NCBI RefSeq assembly: GCF_006740045.1
Contig: NZ_AP019749.1
Coordinates: 3,367,001 to 3,431,000, forward strand
DNA: 64,000 nucleotides
Reading direction: 5' to 3'
Origin: Comamonas terrigena NBRC 13299
GTDB lineage: Bacteria > Pseudomonadota > Gammaproteobacteria > Burkholderiales > Burkholderiaceae_C
Shown: piece by piece, positions 26,691 to 35,021 of the stretch
Numbering within the stretch: position 1 is the first letter of the stretch
Layout of the letters: each line of letters opens with the position of its first letter
Made by a program: the position numbers and the translations under genes
The notes under the pieces: generated by a model
What the model was told of the DNA's origin: nothing
Seen by the model: only the letters and a program-made list of their open reading frames with translations
Databases searched by the model: none

Positions 26691-29432
26691 CTAGGATGTG
26701 CCAAAGCAAAAGCGCTTGGCTCGCCGACCGTATTGCAGCAAGAGCTGTGGTTCAAAAACGAGGATCTGCAAGTTTTCCTCGGCGAACGAGCCGGCTTTCT
26801 TCACTGCATCCCGGAAGAAAAAATTGTTTGTTGTTTTGGAAAGTCTTCTGTGGAACTCGCTCAATGAAGTCGGCGCGCCTCCGGCACTCTCGATTATCCT
26901 CAGCCAAGTCTCGTAATCGCTAGCGGAAATATTTGCCAGCGCCAGCTGCAAAATGATGATGAAGTCATGTTCAACGTCATCAACCATATTGAGCGACCTC
27001 GACGTTGCCTTCATCACGCGAAAAGCGTTCGCGTACCAGAGTATCTTGCGCGGAACAGTTGCGAAATATGGAATGAACAGGGCCATGGAGTCGCGATGGA
27101 ACGTCTTGAACGTCAATGAGTACACCCGCGGTTCTCTGTGCGCCGACGGCGTCAAACCGGAACTCTGCTGGCTTTCCCTTTGACCTCTGGAAGTATCAGA
27201 TTCTGAGGGGATGTCGTTATCAACGGGAATGAGCCCCTCGAGCAAGGTCTTACCAGACTTGCCGTTGACCTCCTCAATCCAATAAGGTAACTGAAAAATT
27301 TTTTCGAGGTAGTCGTGCGGCGCTGCGCTGGCGACACCGCTATCGGATTTCAGCAAAGACCCATATTGCTTCAGCAGCGCCTGCGAAAGCCAGCGCACAT
27401 CCACTGCGACAAATACGGTGAAAAGCGGGAAGGCAAGGAGCATGTGGACAGCTTGCAGCACCTCGATGACCTTCTCGTGTGAGCAGCGGTCTAAGTCGTC
27501 GATATATAAGACCAAGCGCTCGAATGGAAGCTCTAGTTTTTTCTTTTTCGCAGCATCTGGCTGCAGATCCAGCCTCAACGCCTCCAGAACCCTTTTGTCC
27601 TCCGGCAGAAGTCCGCTGTCATTGGCCTCAAGACGCTCAATTCGGGAAAGCAGTGCTGCCGCTTCCTCAGGCAGGAACGCTGAGGTTGCTTGGTCGCTCT
27701 GCATCCCGCGAGAAAGTTCTTCGAAGTCCCGGCGCACTGAAGCGATGAGACCGAGATGCTTTGCATAATGCCCATCCGTCGCACGCGCCTGAAGGAACTT
27801 GCGGAGCCTGCCGCTGCCAGTCGCGCCGTGAAAGTCTTCGACTGCTTTAGCCAAGTTGCCTGCGGATGCTGCGAGGTCTTGTTTTGCTGCAACGATGTCA
27901 GCTTCGGCCCTGCTCAAAGCAGTTTGCGCTTCTTCTACTGCGTCGTCATGCTCCTTCATGGCCAACGCAACTACCTCGTCGACCTTGGCCTTCACTACTC
28001 GCATATTCCTCAGGACAGGACCCGCCAGATCATGGAGCCTCCGGACCCCGATGCTCAGTGCAATCAAGCAAGTTGCTGCTGACGTGAGCAGACTGGTGAC
28101 GTGCGATACGTCAAAATCTTGCATCAGTTCCTTAAGGCACCAAGCGAGCAGCGGCGCCGCCGGAATGCATGCGAAAGCCAGTGCTGCGCCGATCTTGCTT
28201 CCCAATTTCGTGCTGACGCTGTTGAAGACAATCCGGCTTTCCCCTGCAAGAGTGTTGGTTGCTTCTAGGCTGGCCTGGATTTGACTCTTGGCAACCTCCA
28301 AATTAGTAATGCCGAGGGAGTTGGCCGCTTCCTGAAGCTGTGTGCGCAACTCGCTGTCGTCAGCAAGTACGCGATGCGCGATGTCTAGGTAGGTTGCGGG
28401 TCGCCCGACTACCTTTGCCGCTTCAACTAACCGTGCCTGCTCAGCCGCCGCTAGCTTGTCGGCAAACTCTTTCTGAGTCCTACGTTGGTCGGCAAGACGC
28501 TCTGCCGACTCAACAGTCAGCAGCCTGGTTGTGCCCAAGTTCTCCAGCAGAGCAGCTTTGCGGCGTTCGTCGTCGGTCTTTCGGCCCCCGTCCACGTCGA
28601 CCACAGATCCCAACTGGGTAAACAAGTGGTCCACTAGACTAGCCCAAAGGTTTGTTTCGCTGTAGTGCCAAGCGTTGAAACGAACCTGTACGATCCGGCT
28701 GTGGAAGCTTCCCGATGCCCCCTCAGGAGCTTTCGTGTAGTAATCGCCCTTGGCAAGTTCAGCAACGTGGTCGTGGACGAGCCGCATGAAGAATGACTTG
28801 CCGGAGCCCCAGCTTCCGAAAACCGCAATCGCGAGCGGGGGCCGCACGTCCTTGGAGGCGACAACGCGGGCGAAAGCCTTTGCGTCCTCGCTGAATCCAA
28901 GGCGGTCGACAGCTTTTCCGTCCCATGCATCGTCGTTCATGGGAGACGCGATTAGCGTCTCGCTCATCCGGCGTTTAGCTTCTTGGAGCTTAGCGTCGTC
29001 TTCTATCTCTCCAACCTTGACCGGCTGCTGAAAGAGTTCAGGTGCGTTTGATTCATTAAGTTCTTCCTCACGACCTGCAGAACGCTGGTTCAACGATGGG
29101 TCTGGTGTGGACAAGGGTGCAGCCTTCACGGACGCGAAAGGCGCCGACGTGTAAGACTCCATCGACACCTGCGAGGGGGCTCGGCGATTCGATGCGCGCT
29201 TCAGCGGAGGCGACTTGGTTCGCGCAGCGGTTGAGCCTTCAGTGGGCATTTGAGGTGGCGGCGCCGCACGGTCAGGTTTCGCAGGACTGACGCGTAGTGG
29301 TGTGCCGAGACCACTCAAGACTCGATTCGCGATGACATCGGCGAGCTCAATGGTGCTGTCGTCAGAGTCCGACTTCTGCTCTGGCGTGCCGTCAGGCGGC
29401 ACTTTTCCGACAGGGCTGGGTGGTGCTTCCAT
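26691..29432 (-). CDS. Membrane-associated KAP-family P-loop NTPase
   Basis: The 913-residue protein begins with about 170 disordered Pro/Ser-rich residues. The KAP NTPase domain follows, with Walker A GSWGSGKS at residues 206-213 and Walker B LYIDDLDRC near 645. Two hydrophobic segments (about 415-435 and 450-468) and a Glu/Lys/Ala coiled-coil stretch (about 480-560) are inserted between them, the usual KAP layout that places the ATPase at the inner face of the membrane. KAP proteins include phage-exclusion factors such as PifA and animal scaffold proteins; the role here is not known. GC content is lower than in neighbours and it lies beside the Abi-like island, so a defence role is an inference. 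It starts 24 nt after the monooxygenase-like gene. Confidence 0.88.
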   Translation of the reverse strand: MEAPPSPVGKVPPDGTPEQKSDSDDSTIELADVIANRVLSGLGTPLRVSPAKPDRAAPPPQMPTEGSTAARTKSPPLKRASNRRAPSQVSMESYTSAPFASVKAAPLSTPDPSLNQRSAGREEELNESNAPELFQQPVKVGEIEDDAKLQEAKRRMSETLIASPMNDDAWDGKAVDRLGFSEDAKAFARVVASKDVRPPLAIAVFGSWGSGKSFFMRLVHDHVAELAKGDYYTKAPEGASGSFHSRIVQVRFNAWHYSETNLWASLVDHLFTQLGSVVDVDGGRKTDDERRKAALLENLGTTRLLTVESAERLADQRRTQKEFADKLAAAEQARLVEAAKVVGRPATYLDIAHRVLADDSELRTQLQEAANSLGITNLEVAKSQIQASLEATNTLAGESRIVFNSVSTKLGSKIGAALAFACIPAAPLLAWCLKELMQDFDVSHVTSLLTSAATCLIALSIGVRRLHDLAGPVLRNMRVVKAKVDEVVALAMKEHDDAVEEAQTALSRAEADIVAAKQDLAASAGNLAKAVEDFHGATGSGRLRKFLQARATDGHYAKHLGLIASVRRDFEELSRGMQSDQATSAFLPEEAAALLSRIERLEANDSGLLPEDKRVLEALRLDLQPDAAKKKKLELPFERLVLYIDDLDRCSHEKVIEVLQAVHMLLAFPLFTVFVAVDVRWLSQALLKQYGSLLKSDSGVASAAPHDYLEKIFQLPYWIEEVNGKSGKTLLEGLIPVDNDIPSESDTSRGQRESQQSSGLTPSAHREPRVYSLTFKTFHRDSMALFIPYFATVPRKILWYANAFRVMKATSRSLNMVDDVEHDFIIILQLALANISASDYETWLRIIESAGGAPTSLSEFHRRLSKTTNNFFFRDAVKKAGSFAEENLQILVFEPQLLLQYGRRAKRFCFGTS

Positions 29433-29456: not shown

Positions 29457-29756
29457 TTAGGTAGCCCTCGACTCACTCACCTCATACACCTTCAAATTCC
29501 GCTCTCCAATCCCTAGCCCTTCCCAGCTGGCCCGCCATGCCTGAATATGCGCCGATGCAAAATGCGCATCCAGCGCGGCCTGTTCGATCCAGCGCTCTTT
29601 CACATGGATCAAGCCGGGCACAAATAGGTCTTCGGCGTAGACATATTCCAGGCAGCCGGCTTCGGCACGGGAGGCTTGCACCATGGCTCCCATTACGGGT
29701 TTGGCGCGTTCCAGGTTTTCGGGCGGCAGGCGCACGGTGCCCACGATCAACAGCAT
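29457..29756 (-). CDS. Antibiotic biosynthesis monooxygenase (ABM) fold protein
   Basis: The 99-residue protein matches the dimeric alpha-beta barrel of the ABM family: MLLIVGTVRLPPENLERAKP, then EAGCLEYVYAEDL and HVKERWIEQAALDAHFASAH. Members include quinol and haem-degrading monooxygenases and many small proteins of unknown role. ATG 29756 has TTGGAGAG upstream. The gene is complete, but its 5' flank changes at once into AT-rich island DNA. A decayed second copy (about 96% identical over the first 125 bp) lies at 31920-32113. The KAP gene follows on the same strand after 24 nt. Confidence 0.88.
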   Translation of the reverse strand: MLLIVGTVRLPPENLERAKPVMGAMVQASRAEAGCLEYVYAEDLFVPGLIHVKERWIEQAALDAHFASAHIQAWRASWEGLGIGERNLKVYEVSESRAT

Positions 29757-30241
29757 TAAAATGCTCTCCAAATAATGGGAATTCCGACAAAATACCTCAT
29801 GACAATTCATCGAAAGATAGAATAAGCAACTTCAGTTCATAGTCGACTATACAAGATAATTTTACAAATAGCATACTCTGCAATCAAACAATTCGCACTA
29901 TCTCTTGATAGGAAATTTCGCATATATATACGAAAATCGCAAACCTAAGGCAACCCATAAACCCGCAACTCGACTATCTACACATTGATTAAACTTTTTT
30001 CCAAACCGCAGTTCTAAACAACTACGTCTCAACGTCGCCTCAAGTCAAATAGCGCTAATTCAGCACCGTCTCACAATTCCTTAATCAAATTGGTCAAAGA
30101 CTTATATACATCCAATGGCTCAATTTTAGAGGATTCTAGATACTAAGACGACTGAACAATTTTATTTTAGAAATTACCACATGAAGACCAAATTACCAAC
30201 TCGCCTGATGATAACTTTTACGAAATAGATTAGTAAGAAAA
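29757..30241. other. AT-rich island left end, no gene recognised
   Basis: These 485 nt are much richer in A and T than the chromosome and contain no open frame that looks coding. A small hairpin, TTTCG ... CGAAA with an ATATAT-rich loop near 29927-29945, could be a weak terminator for the minus-strand Abi-like operon. No tRNA, integrase, retron-type RNA or inverted terminal repeat was recognised. Confidence 0.55.
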
Positions 30242-30985
30242 TCAACAATCGAATAGATTGTAATTCATACCAAGTTCATTTATAACTTTTTCAAATTCTT
30301 TATTTTTTTTAAAAAAATCTACCGATGGATAATCCATAAACTGAATGACAAGCATCATTAATCTAAGCTGAGGAAAAGATGTGAAATTTATTAAAGTAGA
30401 GTAATACAAATTTCTGTCATCCGAAGAAAAGCCATTTTTTTCACTCAGTCGATCAGAAACAAGTTTCACACTCAAAAAGAATCCTCTGAAAATATCATAA
30501 ATACGATCATCATCATCCATTAAATCAATAACACGCCTAACACCTTGAACACCTCCTCCAATATTTAAAACCCTGTCAACCTCATTTTCCACCTTATTAA
30601 TAAAACTACTAGCTTCAGAGATCCCGGCATCTCCAAATAAAATTGTGCCACCATTAAGTTTTTCAAATTCTTTTCTTTGAATTTCTATCAGATTAAAGAA
30701 TAGATTTTCGAAAGATTTTAATTTCTCAGTTTTTCTTGAATTATCTATCTCATTCTTCAGCGAAATATTAGACTCATTCTGAATATTTAACGATTTTATT
30801 AGAAGAACTATTGAAATAAAACTCAAAATAGGATTTAATGTTCCTCCAAGATAATCTCCAAGCTGCCCCCACACCTCTGGAAGCGGCGACAATTTAAAAT
30901 CCAGAATAATATAAAAATTTATTACATACAATCCAAGAATTATTAATATAAAAAAGATAGCGAATTTAATTAGCCAATTACTCAT
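30242..30985 (-). CDS. Two-TM putative phage abortive infection protein (putAbiC-like)
   Basis: The 247-residue protein has an N-terminal membrane segment (about residues 5-28), then the motif WGQLGDYLGGTLNP (39-52) leading into a second hydrophobic stretch (about 50-66), then a coiled coil (about 67-110) and a helical C-terminal domain. The WG-x-x-GDY-x-GG-x-x-NP motif between two TM segments is what I know from the putAbiC family (putative phage abortive infection protein). The molecular action of that family is not settled. Codon use is extremely AT-rich, unlike all flanking genes, which indicates transfer. Its start lies inside the 3' end of the 273-aa gene (8-nt overlap), so the two are translationally coupled. 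Confidence 0.78.
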   Translation of the reverse strand: MSNWLIKFAIFFILIILGLYVINFYIILDFKLSPLPEVWGQLGDYLGGTLNPILSFISIVLLIKSLNIQNESNISLKNEIDNSRKTEKLKSFENLFFNLIEIQRKEFEKLNGGTILFGDAGISEASSFINKVENEVDRVLNIGGGVQGVRRVIDLMDDDDRIYDIFRGFFLSVKLVSDRLSEKNGFSSDDRNLYYSTLINFTSFPQLRLMMLVIQFMDYPSVDFFKKNKEFEKVINELGMNYNLFDC

Positions 30986-31799
30986 TATACTTTCTAAGTA
31001 TATATTTAATAATTTTACCGCCCGGCAACTCTACAGGTAAAGCTGATACCTTCATATATTCCCAGTACTGTGGAAGAATGCCGTTATTTTTATTTAAATT
31101 TTCTGAAAAAATCTTTTTTTCATGAAACTCCATTTCTTTATATTTACCAGCAAAACCAAAAGAAACTGTTTCGTCATGGTCAAGTAGCTGCAGTCTACCG
31201 TTACCCGTATGAATGTTAAATCTAGTTATGCCTACAGTTAGATCAATTACATTCTTCCCGTAAATTGGTTTAATTGATTTCGCAGTTTCTTCGTCAAAAT
31301 ATGCAATTGGAATTTGAGACTCTCTACTTTTTCTATGTCTCAAAACAACATTATGATCAAATTTCATCGAAATCTGATGTATATTCTCTAATGCCGTAGT
31401 TCGCAATTGCTCAATAATTTCTTCTGATTTATAGCCCAAATTTTCCAAAACTTTATCCGCCTTGCTAGACAGATCCCCACCGTCCAAATAAACTGACTCC
31501 TTAAGAAAATATGATATCAACTCAATGAATGGAGCCGCTCCAATTTTTTTATATTTTTTAAGCAACTCGTCATCATAGACATCAATACTAAATATTTGCC
31601 CATAAGAACCTTTGAAATTTCTTTTTAAACTAGTCCTTATCTTGTCTTTATGACTCATCCTCTTGGGCACCTCACCAGTCAAAATTGACTCAGAGATACA
31701 GCGAACCCCATCAGACAATCCTTGCAACGTATCCAGACCCGCTTTCATGTCCACATAGTCTTCTGGAGTTGTTATCAGCACATCTAAATTAATCGTCAT
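30978..31799 (-). CDS. Hypothetical protein, upstream partner of the putAbiC-like gene
   Basis: I do not recognise this 273-residue protein. It has no membrane segment and no signal peptide. The N-terminal third contains LDTLQGLSDGVRCISESILTG and IRTSLKRNFKGSYGQIFSID, which look conserved (Gly/Ser-rich turns with basic residues), then a helical middle (residues about 100-150) and a probable beta-rich C-terminal part (ITRFNIHTGNGRLQLLDHDETVSFGF). It is AT-rich like its partner. Being first in the operon and soluble, it could be the sensor or regulator of the membrane-bound partner. Two palindromes lie just upstream. Weak GAAAG precedes ATG 31799. Confidence 0.8.
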   Translation of the reverse strand: MTINLDVLITTPEDYVDMKAGLDTLQGLSDGVRCISESILTGEVPKRMSHKDKIRTSLKRNFKGSYGQIFSIDVYDDELLKKYKKIGAAPFIELISYFLKESVYLDGGDLSSKADKVLENLGYKSEEIIEQLRTTALENIHQISMKFDHNVVLRHRKSRESQIPIAYFDEETAKSIKPIYGKNVIDLTVGITRFNIHTGNGRLQLLDHDETVSFGFAGKYKEMEFHEKKIFSENLNKNNGILPQYWEYMKVSALPVELPGGKIIKYILRKYNE

Positions 31800-31840
31800 A
31801 TATCTTTCAATTTATTTTACGCAAAATATTTCTTTCTACG

Positions 31841-31857
31841 TGCATATTAATTATGCA
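31841..31857. promoter_or_regulatory. Palindrome upstream of the Abi-like operon (proximal)
   Basis: TGCATA (31841-31846) and TATGCA (31852-31857) are perfect arms around a 5-nt centre. The site ends 42 nt before the operon start codon at 31799, in the expected promoter region of the minus-strand operon. It may be an operator. Confidence 0.5.
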
Positions 31858-31868
31858 TTCTAAGATTA

Positions 31869-31899
31869 TCAGAAATTTAATATTGAAAATAATTTCTGA
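31869..31899. promoter_or_regulatory. Palindrome upstream of the Abi-like operon (distal)
   Basis: TCAGAAATT (31869-31877) and AATTTCTGA (31891-31899) are perfect 9-bp arms around a 13-nt AT-rich spacer, 70-100 nt upstream of the operon start. Together with the proximal palindrome this suggests repressor control or an RNA structure at the 5' end of the transcript. Confidence 0.55.
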
Positions 31900-31919
31900 C
31901 ACTTTAATATCCAGAGAGT

Positions 31920-32113
31920 AGCTGCCACTCCTGAATATGTCTGGTAATCTAGCATTTTTTCACCTGAATCGACCATATAAAAAAGTCTTCAGCGTAGACA
32001 TATTCCAGGCAGCCAGCTTCGGCGCGCGAGGTTTGCACCATGGCACCCATTACGGGTTTGGCGCGTTCCAGGTTTTCGGGCGGCAGGCGCACGGTGCCCA
32101 CGATCAACAGCAT
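31920..32113 (-). pseudogene. Decayed copy of the ABM-fold gene
   Basis: The frame from ATG 32113 (GGAG upstream) reads MLLIVGTVRLPPENLERAKP and onward almost exactly as the intact gene at 29756. It then degenerates (AEDFFIWSIQVKKC, stop at 31949). Further scraps of homology, such as CCTGAATATG near 31930, show an internal deletion and loss of the 3' end. The 5' flank here looks like ordinary chromosome, so this is probably the resident copy, and the intact copy at 29457-29756 came with or was displaced by the inserted DNA. Confidence 0.8.
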
Positions 32114-32679
32114 GACAATCTCCAGAGGGGTGACCATTGCGGCCCACGCAGCGTGGTACCTGGCGGTCACTATTTAGCGCCGTCCATCCTAGACCAGCAT
32201 GCGTAACACAAGCTTACAACTGGCTGTGTATCTGGTGCATGCATTGCAAAGCTATGAATATCTAGCTTGCTCGTCCTGCGCATGGGCAGGGCTGCTTATG
32301 CCCAACGGCTATGCCATGTGCCGTTTCTGGTAAGCGTGTGCTGCAACAGAAACACTGGCATATGCATCCATAAAAGGCTCAGGAAAACACGCATACGGTT
32401 TTCCCTAGAACGCAGTTACTGCTGCAGCGCCGCAATCTGCGCCAGGCCTTGCAGGTGTTGACGGCTGCACGCAAAAGCTGATGCGTCCCTGTTTGGTGCG
32501 GGCGGCCTGCATGGGCTGCGCTGTCCAAAAAATGACAGCAGCGCTAATGCTGCCCACAGAGCATGGGGCCATCGGTGGATTGCCTCTCCCTCCCCCCATT
32601 TTTGCTGCGCATCCACTGCGATTCCGGCCTGGTTCCGCAAAACACAGGCCCTGGTTTTATTCACCTCTGGAGTCTTGCC
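32114..32679. other. Intergenic region right of the island
   Basis: This 566-nt stretch returns to chromosomal base composition after about 32400. The first part is mixed, with no convincing gene on either strand. A minus-strand frame ending at 32416 (…QHLQGLAQIAALQQ) could be the scrap of an older gene, but I cannot name it. The right end should contain the promoter of the Bug receptor gene. Confidence 0.45.
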
Positions 32680-33934: not shown

Positions 33935-34846
33935 TCAGGCCGGGGTCTTGCCTGCGCGCATGGCAGCGGCGATCTGGGCCAGCACGGCGGGCAGTTCGGC
34001 CACGCTGCGCACCACGTAGTGGGCACCGGCGGCCTTGAGCTTGGCTTCGGCCACGGCCACGCGGGCGTCCACTTCGTCCTTCGGGGCCTGGGCGTATTCC
34101 TGCACGCTGTAGCCCACTTCATTGCCGGACAGGCTCAGGCCCACGGTCCACATGCCGGCGCGCAGGCCTTCGTCGATGCCGGGCACGGTGTCGTCCACCT
34201 TCACGCAGGCGCGCACATCGCCAATGCCCAGGGCCAGCACATTGGCCAGCGCCATGAAGGGGCCGGGGCGGCCGCCGGCAGGCAGTTCGTCACCGGCAAC
34301 CACATGGTCGGGTGCGATGCCGGCGGCGGCAGCCTGGGGAAGCAACTGGTTCAGCACCTCACGCGGGTAGCCCGAGCAGGAGCCCACTTTCAGGCCGTGG
34401 GCGCGCAGCCAGGGCAGCAGCTCTACCGCGCCTTCGATCGGCGCCGAAAACTCGCCCACCTTGGCAATCTGCATGGGCATGAAACGGGCGTAGATAGCGT
34501 CCACATCGTCATTGCCGGGTGCTCGGCCGAAGACGGTCTGCCACTGGGCGGCGATGCTGGCATCCTGCAGCAGCTGGTGGATGTGGTCCCACTTGCTCAG
34601 ACCCATGGGGCCGCGCGCCTGTGCCAAGGTGATGGTGATGCCGAAGGTGGCAAAGGCTTCCACAAAGATCTGCGTGGGGGCCAGGGACCCAAAGTCGACC
34701 AGGGTGCCGGCCCAGTCAAAGATGACGGCCTGCAGCGGCGCCAAGTCTGCGGCGGAGCCGGTTGCTGCCGCGGCGCAGCTTGCGTTGAAGGTGGCGGACG
34801 AGGTCGAAGTGGTGGCCTGCGTTGTGGCGGATGTGGTGGCGTTCAT
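33935..34846 (-). CDS. phnX: Phosphonoacetaldehyde hydrolase (phosphonatase)
   Basis: PhnX splits the carbon-phosphorus bond of phosphonoacetaldehyde into acetaldehyde and phosphate. This 303-residue HAD enzyme has the nucleophile motif FDWAGTLVDFG (Asp44) and the Schiff-base lysine in ARGPMGLSKWDHI (Lys85). The 41-residue distance between them equals that in the Bacillus cereus enzyme as I recall it. VKVDDTVPGIDEGLRAGMWTVG is the metal-binding region. The first about 38 residues (Thr/Ser/Ala-rich) are an extension absent from typical PhnX. AGGAG precedes ATG 34846. It is the last gene of the phnD-C-E-ADH-phnX run. Confidence 0.93.
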   Translation of the reverse strand: MNATTSATTQATTSTSSATFNASCAAAATGSAADLAPLQAVIFDWAGTLVDFGSLAPTQIFVEAFATFGITITLAQARGPMGLSKWDHIHQLLQDASIAAQWQTVFGRAPGNDDVDAIYARFMPMQIAKVGEFSAPIEGAVELLPWLRAHGLKVGSCSGYPREVLNQLLPQAAAAGIAPDHVVAGDELPAGGRPGPFMALANVLALGIGDVRACVKVDDTVPGIDEGLRAGMWTVGLSLSGNEVGYSVQEYAQAPKDEVDARVAVAEAKLKAAGAHYVVRSVAELPAVLAQIAAAMRAGKTPA

Positions 34847-35021
34847 GGCGAAGCTCCTGAAAAACAAAGAGGAAGGCAAACAGGGAGGAGGCTGCGCGGC
34901 CGCCTGCCGGGTCCACATGCACGGTGGTGCGGTCAGGGCAGTACGCGGCCAGCGGCAAGGTGGAGGTGGGGGACATGGCGGTCAGCGCAGCGCGGAAAAG
35001 GTCTGGGTCAGAGGGATAGGG

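Follow-up and report, generated by a model that had tools for sequence, protein, structure and literature searches.

The window, that is, the whole stretch of 64,000 nucleotides of Comamonas terrigena NBRC 13299 DNA analyzed here, lies in a genome assembled as a single contig of 4.67 Mb. At positions 29761–31978, it contains an AT-rich insert of 2.2 kb with a GC content of 32% (0.324), which is bordered by a direct repeat and surrounded by chromosomal DNA of approximately 66% GC. The insert carries an operon of two genes, designated A and B. Gene A (30978–31799, minus strand; GC 0.345) is an ORF encoding a soluble protein of 273 aa, and gene B (30242–30985, minus strand; GC 0.293) is an ORF encoding a protein of 247 aa with two predicted membrane helices. 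According to the ORF calls, the start codon of B lies within the end of A, with an overlap of 8 bp. Most 1-kb steps of the window have a GC content of about 0.62–0.74, and a shoulder of 0.53–0.59 is present at 26–30 kb. An earlier note on this DNA had described two overlapping minus-strand genes, the second beginning inside the first and both far richer in A and T than the chromosome, and both parts of this description hold.

The direct repeat at the borders has a length of 141 nt. Its left copy (29622–29762) corresponds to the start of an intact gene of an ABM-type monooxygenase (29457–29756, minus strand; Pfam ABM, 1.1e-12 for the ORF 29457–29810), which adjoins the insert and lies outside the module. 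The right copy (31979–32119) is an ABM gene fragment that is 93% identical to the left copy; it is the second ABM match of this genome and contains one stop. An ABM relative is present in 30 of the 53 genomes of the host genus. A survey of 19 relative loci, with a flank of approximately 1.5 kb each, showed the hydrolase gene found at 33935–34918 of the window at a distance of about 150–260 bp from ABM in three loci (L163, L166, and L172); it was absent from this flank in the other 16. The closeness of the two genes in the three loci indicates that an insert-free neighborhood exists. Neither ABM copy is appreciably closer than the other to its relatives, and either may be the newcomer. The partial duplication of ABM at the insert border suggests recombination at this gene as the entry route, and the module, which stands beside the ABM and phosphonate genes, was probably acquired laterally.

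On its other side from the operon, the intact ABM gene is followed by a gene encoding a KAP-family P-loop NTPase of 913 aa (26691–29432, minus strand), which adjoins the module. It was found in one of the 53 genomes of the host genus, being as restricted as A, and is distantly similar to the PifA and QatA models (6.5e-14 and 3.9e-13, respectively). It is possibly a second defense gene.

The region between the start of A and the right-hand repeat (31800–31979) was searched for the two perfect palindromes that the earlier note had placed upstream of the operon. No perfect palindrome of at least 10 nt was found there, and one of 8 nt (AAATATTT) was detected; Markov shuffles of this region contained, on average, 0.44 and 1.45 such palindromes, respectively. 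The four perfect palindromes of at least 10 nt that the insert does contain are located within the two genes or downstream of B. Upstream palindromes acting as operators were, on this ground, rejected. Scans for promoters and terminators were uninformative: they gave 10 promoter-like sites where 9.5 were expected by chance and two terminator-like sites where 1.1 were.

According to family-averaged hydropathy, B has two hydrophobic helices with peaks at residues 6–24 and 45–63, and the sequence WGQLGDYLGGTLNP lies in the loop between them. The predicted topology places the N-terminus inside, the loop with this sequence outside, and the long C-terminal part inside; the fit of the charges to this arrangement is weak, the stretch after the second helix being near neutral. 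The loop is strictly conserved across the family, its G-D and N-P being invariant, and the long C-terminal part is conserved as well. B matches phrog_8999 (E 2.3e-37), a PHROG without known function, and has 146 relatives among approximately 5.8 billion proteins searched, most of the best 120 of them being nameless.

The earlier note had assigned B to the putative phage abortive-infection (putAbiC) family from its two-helix layout and the GDYxGG-NP motif. The layout and the motif are indeed present, and the analysis in the hhalign program aligned the first 113 profile columns of B with the hairpin of standalone putAbiC-type phage proteins with a probability of 99.8. The motif belongs to this hairpin. 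The Pfam model PF16872 matches 13 of 27 standalone hairpin relatives at E ≤ 0.01, and in the one standalone protein shown the match covers residues 197–266, outside the hairpin. B of the window gave no match with PF16872 at E ≤ 1. Among the 114 members of the B family, PF16872 was not one of the best 25 of 39 families, which leaves at most one member that could match it. In addition, no similarity was detected between the C-terminal parts of B and of the standalone putAbiC-type proteins. By the criterion of a two-helix hairpin with GDYxGGxLNP, which is our own description and not that of Pfam, B belongs with these proteins; by the Pfam cut-off it does not, and its membership in the Pfam family was rejected. 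Judging from these comparisons, B is best called a putAbiC-type hairpin protein without putAbiC membership in the sense of Pfam.

No hydrophobic helix was found in A by the same hydropathy analysis, in agreement with the earlier description of the first gene product as soluble. A matches phrog_13337 (E 6.8e-41), also a PHROG without known function; 203 relatives were found among the approximately 5.8 billion proteins, and most of the best 120 of these are nameless. A distant similarity to the Pfam domains DUF7946 and DUF7947 was noted, which is clearer in the relatives than in A of the window itself. The latter reaches 21.4 bits with DUF7947, where the Pfam cut-off is 27, has no match with DUF7946, and is not a member of the proteins carrying both domains above cut-off. 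Among 133 members of the A family, weak matches at E ≤ 0.1 were obtained in 120 for DUF7947 (best 8.3e-7) and in 76 for DUF7946 (best 5.3e-8). Compared directly, the profiles of A and of one true DUF7946/7947 family showed no significant similarity (probability 0.7%). No enzyme family matching A was found in Pfam, PADLOC, or NCBIfam. Weak KaiB matches in the NCBIfam search and matches with solved structures at E of 0.13 or more were taken as chance.

The neighborhoods of true DUF7946-DUF7947 proteins were compared using a flank of approximately 1.5 kb and a crude hydropathy criterion. At one of them (L113:1489-3241), the next gene on that strand encodes a membrane protein with two predicted helices and no Pfam match; this gene pair is possibly an independent analogue of A-B. 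A same-strand neighbor of this kind was seen in only one of the nine loci, and a general pairing of DUF7946/7947 proteins with membrane proteins is unsupported. A phage gene in L114 (also L152), considered as a second case, was discarded, as the A and B profiles match nothing there at E ≤ 0.01.

The pairing of A with B had been named beforehand as a point on which the earlier note could be refuted, namely, if the two genes never co-occurred elsewhere. Every A in the genome and viral scans has B directly downstream, in 19 of 19 loci of the genome collection and in 10 of 10 of the viral collection. A viral search through B retained 80 loci, 22 of which contain A then B, two begin at B and thus have no readable upstream sequence, and 56 encode distant B-like hairpin proteins standing alone without A. 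Combining the A and B searches, both genes are present on 25 distinct viral contigs, some of which are near-identical to one another. With B starts assigned by script, 52 of 54 distinct pairs have a spacing between −11 and +14 nt; of the other two, one has 331 nt and one was not placed. For 45 non-redundant pairs, the distances among A proteins correlate with those among B proteins (r = 0.86), and none of 2000 shuffles exceeded 0.19; such a correlation also follows from linkage alone, and what it shows is that the partners have not been exchanged. A and B are adjacent, usually overlapping or abutting, and are inherited as a unit. One copy, that of Azotobacter vinelandii CA (L013:9992-11550), has both A and B split between frames and looks broken.

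The distribution of the pair is sporadic. In the host genus, A is found in one of 53 genomes, namely, that of the window, and in the class in two of 369. B matches nine of 340 class genomes, strongly in two of them; these are the window's own genome and the other genome with A, in which A and B are side by side. The seven weak matches represent the distant kind. Among 50,697 phage records, A was found in one, Klebsiella phage Kp4865-4, with B beside it. A is also present on 19 plasmid records, 13 of which are typed as conjugative. Both genes were found on all five plasmids opened, among which one is of type IncX1 and two are ColRNAI; the smallest has 4.65 kb. One plasmid form of the pair occurs in 14 of 5426 Escherichia coli genomes, on plasmids only.

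Two further forms in E. coli are located in mobile elements at specific sites. In a P4-like satellite, A-B lies between the polarity-suppression gene psu and int, beside ssrA, and this form was found in 7 of the 5426 genomes. At distant sensitivity, the second form matched 36 of the 5426 genomes, always on the chromosome, and in 14 the match covered most of the query. In each of the five genomes opened, the copy belongs to a P2-like prophage (one of them essentially identical to a viral contig, L047) and A-B is placed between the replication endonuclease and the portal gene, the latter less than 200 bp away on the opposite strand. Among the 25 viral contigs, 14 have the portal gene at this distance and in this orientation, and 13 of these 14 also have the replication endonuclease upstream. 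Two near-identical contigs are P4-like. The remaining contigs either carry the pair at another place, such as behind the P2 tail gene D in L028, or have none of the markers. Judged by P2 and P4 markers only, relatives of the pair lie in the gpA-gpQ interval of P2-like phages or the psu-int interval of P4-like satellites; the copy of the window lies elsewhere, and these markers are absent near most of the 19 chromosomal A-B loci.

According to the available text of PMC9122126, both intervals are hotspots of anti-phage systems, and plaque assays, with positive and negative outcomes, demonstrated phage resistance conferred by cassettes from both. The same text notes that the P2 hotspot also holds a partition system and a toxin and that not all of its genes are defensive. 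This placement of the relatives supports the candidate anti-phage module proposed in the earlier note. In E. coli P13-6 (L147:7061-8668), a serine/threonine kinase gene matching the PD-T4-6 models shares the P2 hotspot with A-B.

The surroundings of the 19 chromosomal copies were also compared with the PADLOC models. Among 112 script-called ORFs within 3.5 kb of these copies, 17 PADLOC models were matched at E ≤ 1e-8, including RT_UG29, MzaA, PDC-S46 (two ORFs), and a ThsA-like SIR2, as well as a DnaG-like one that is probably housekeeping. For comparison, 94 ORFs at a distance of 5.5–9.5 kb gave eight, the best being mad3 (1.9e-24) and the others 1e-10 or weaker. This rough comparison is suggestive of defense-island enrichment around the chromosomal copies. 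Three resolvases and two integrases were found among the near ORFs. Ten neighbor genes were picked by hand as illustrations, six of which matched a PADLOC model at E ≤ 0.001. On a Plesiomonas plasmid, which has P2-like tail genes, a gene pair encoding an AAA ATPase and a DUF3226 protein and matching the PDC-M38A/B models (L107:10681-12425) is located approximately 1.1 kb downstream of A-B.

The earlier note had stated that the pairing is not a known named defense system, and no named system was matched in PADLOC or NCBIfam. No PADLOC-DB 2.0.0 model matches either protein at E ≤ 1, NCBIfam gave only matches far below cut-off for both proteins, and no Pfam model reaches its cut-off. No published name for the pair was found in a literature search conducted mostly without subscription papers and supplementary tables; a table of PMC9122126 may list the pair unnamed. 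The search found nothing for DUF7946/7947 and, for the putAbiC names, only papers titled on other subjects. The available text of the discovery papers PMC9519451 and PMC13092281 does not name these domains, and that of PMC11364771 describes another satellite-borne system.

Taken as a whole, A-B is probably an anti-phage defense, whatever its mechanism, since both genes turn up together in two distinct kinds of antiviral cargo site, each of which has been studied by experiment. This positional evidence is the strongest evidence for defense. As to the mechanism, we give roughly even chances to a mobile two-gene module in which A senses infection or restrains its partner and B is the membrane effector. 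Plasmid carriage, sporadic distribution, and a hairpin common to putAbiC-type phage proteins are consistent with such a module. A would be cytosolic and would recognize some consequence of infection or keep B inactive until infection; B, predicted to be a two-helix membrane protein with an outward GDYxGGxLNP loop and a long cytoplasmic part, would, once active, alter the inner membrane by forming a pore or by depolarization. Phage production would be halted in this way, most likely by abortive infection. B is taken as the effector because of its membrane hairpin and because the available text of PMC9122126 mentions the belief that the transmembrane proteins of known systems act as effectors. 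A is taken as the sensor or restrainer only on account of its solubility, its leading place in the operon, and its constant presence.

A more specific proposal is tentative. A may be a diverged DUF7946/7947-like infection sensor, with no NTPase, TIR, cyclase, or nuclease match, that directly gates a putAbiC-type hairpin. The hairpin may then be a general membrane-attacking part that has been combined in evolution with various regulators, which share its chain in standalone putAbiC-type proteins and form a separate protein in A-B. The pair could then be the first representative of a new class of immunity with membrane effectors.

Superinfection exclusion, in which B stops genome entry or another envelope step, A serves as a regulator or assembly factor, and the cells survive, is an unlikely alternative. 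Many temperate phages carry A-B, and a small prophage-encoded membrane protein whose outward loop is strictly conserved suits such a role. Still, the long conserved cytoplasmic part of B and its obligate soluble partner exceed the needs of a simple exclusion protein, and the pair is carried by plasmids as well. It is improbable that A-B is primarily a toxin-antitoxin or addiction module stabilizing prophages, satellites, and plasmids, with A neutralizing a membrane toxin B and phage protection being secondary: the soluble-then-membrane order, the overlapping genes, and carriage by plasmids as small as 4.65 kb agree with it, but the distant B-like hairpin proteins do without A in 56 of the 80 loci of the viral B scan, and the pair occurs in integrated satellites, at a slot that holds defense cassettes according to the available text of PMC9122126. 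Similarly improbable is non-defense cargo, i.e., a gene pair for lysogenic conversion or membrane stress that has nothing to do with phage competition; the non-defensive genes of the P2 hotspot offer a precedent, against which stand the recurrence of A-B at two different antiviral hotspots and on plasmids, its sporadic distribution, and its co-residence with the PD-T4-6-matching kinase and the PDC-M38A/B-matching pair.

If A-B is a defense module with a membrane effector, the defense catalogues would gain a widespread system that as yet has no name. The putAbiC-type proteins carry an "abortive infection" label, and A-B makes this label directly testable in standard strains: the pair is compact, combines this hairpin with an obligate soluble partner, and occurs naturally in E. 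coli P4 satellites, in P2 prophages, and on small plasmids.

Among known proteins, those with DUF7946 and DUF7947 (PF25678 and PF25679) resemble A by weak sub-threshold matches and differ from A-B in having a two-helix neighbor on the same strand at only one of nine loci. The putAbiC-type phage proteins (PF16872) share the N-terminal two-helix hairpin with B, whereas their C-terminal part shows no similarity to that of B and they stand alone without A in 56 loci. Among known systems, P2 old-tin and the other P2/P4 hotspot cassettes of PMC9122126 share the gpA-gpQ and psu-int intervals with A-B. Some of the P4 cassettes given in its available text also combine an enzyme with a transmembrane protein, e.g., a HAD hydrolase with a TM protein or an RT-nitrilase with a 1TM protein. 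By their description there, the validated systems differ from A-B, and none of the enzyme families in Pfam, PADLOC, or NCBIfam is matched by A. Compact two-gene modules with a membrane component are already known, but not with A and B as their components.
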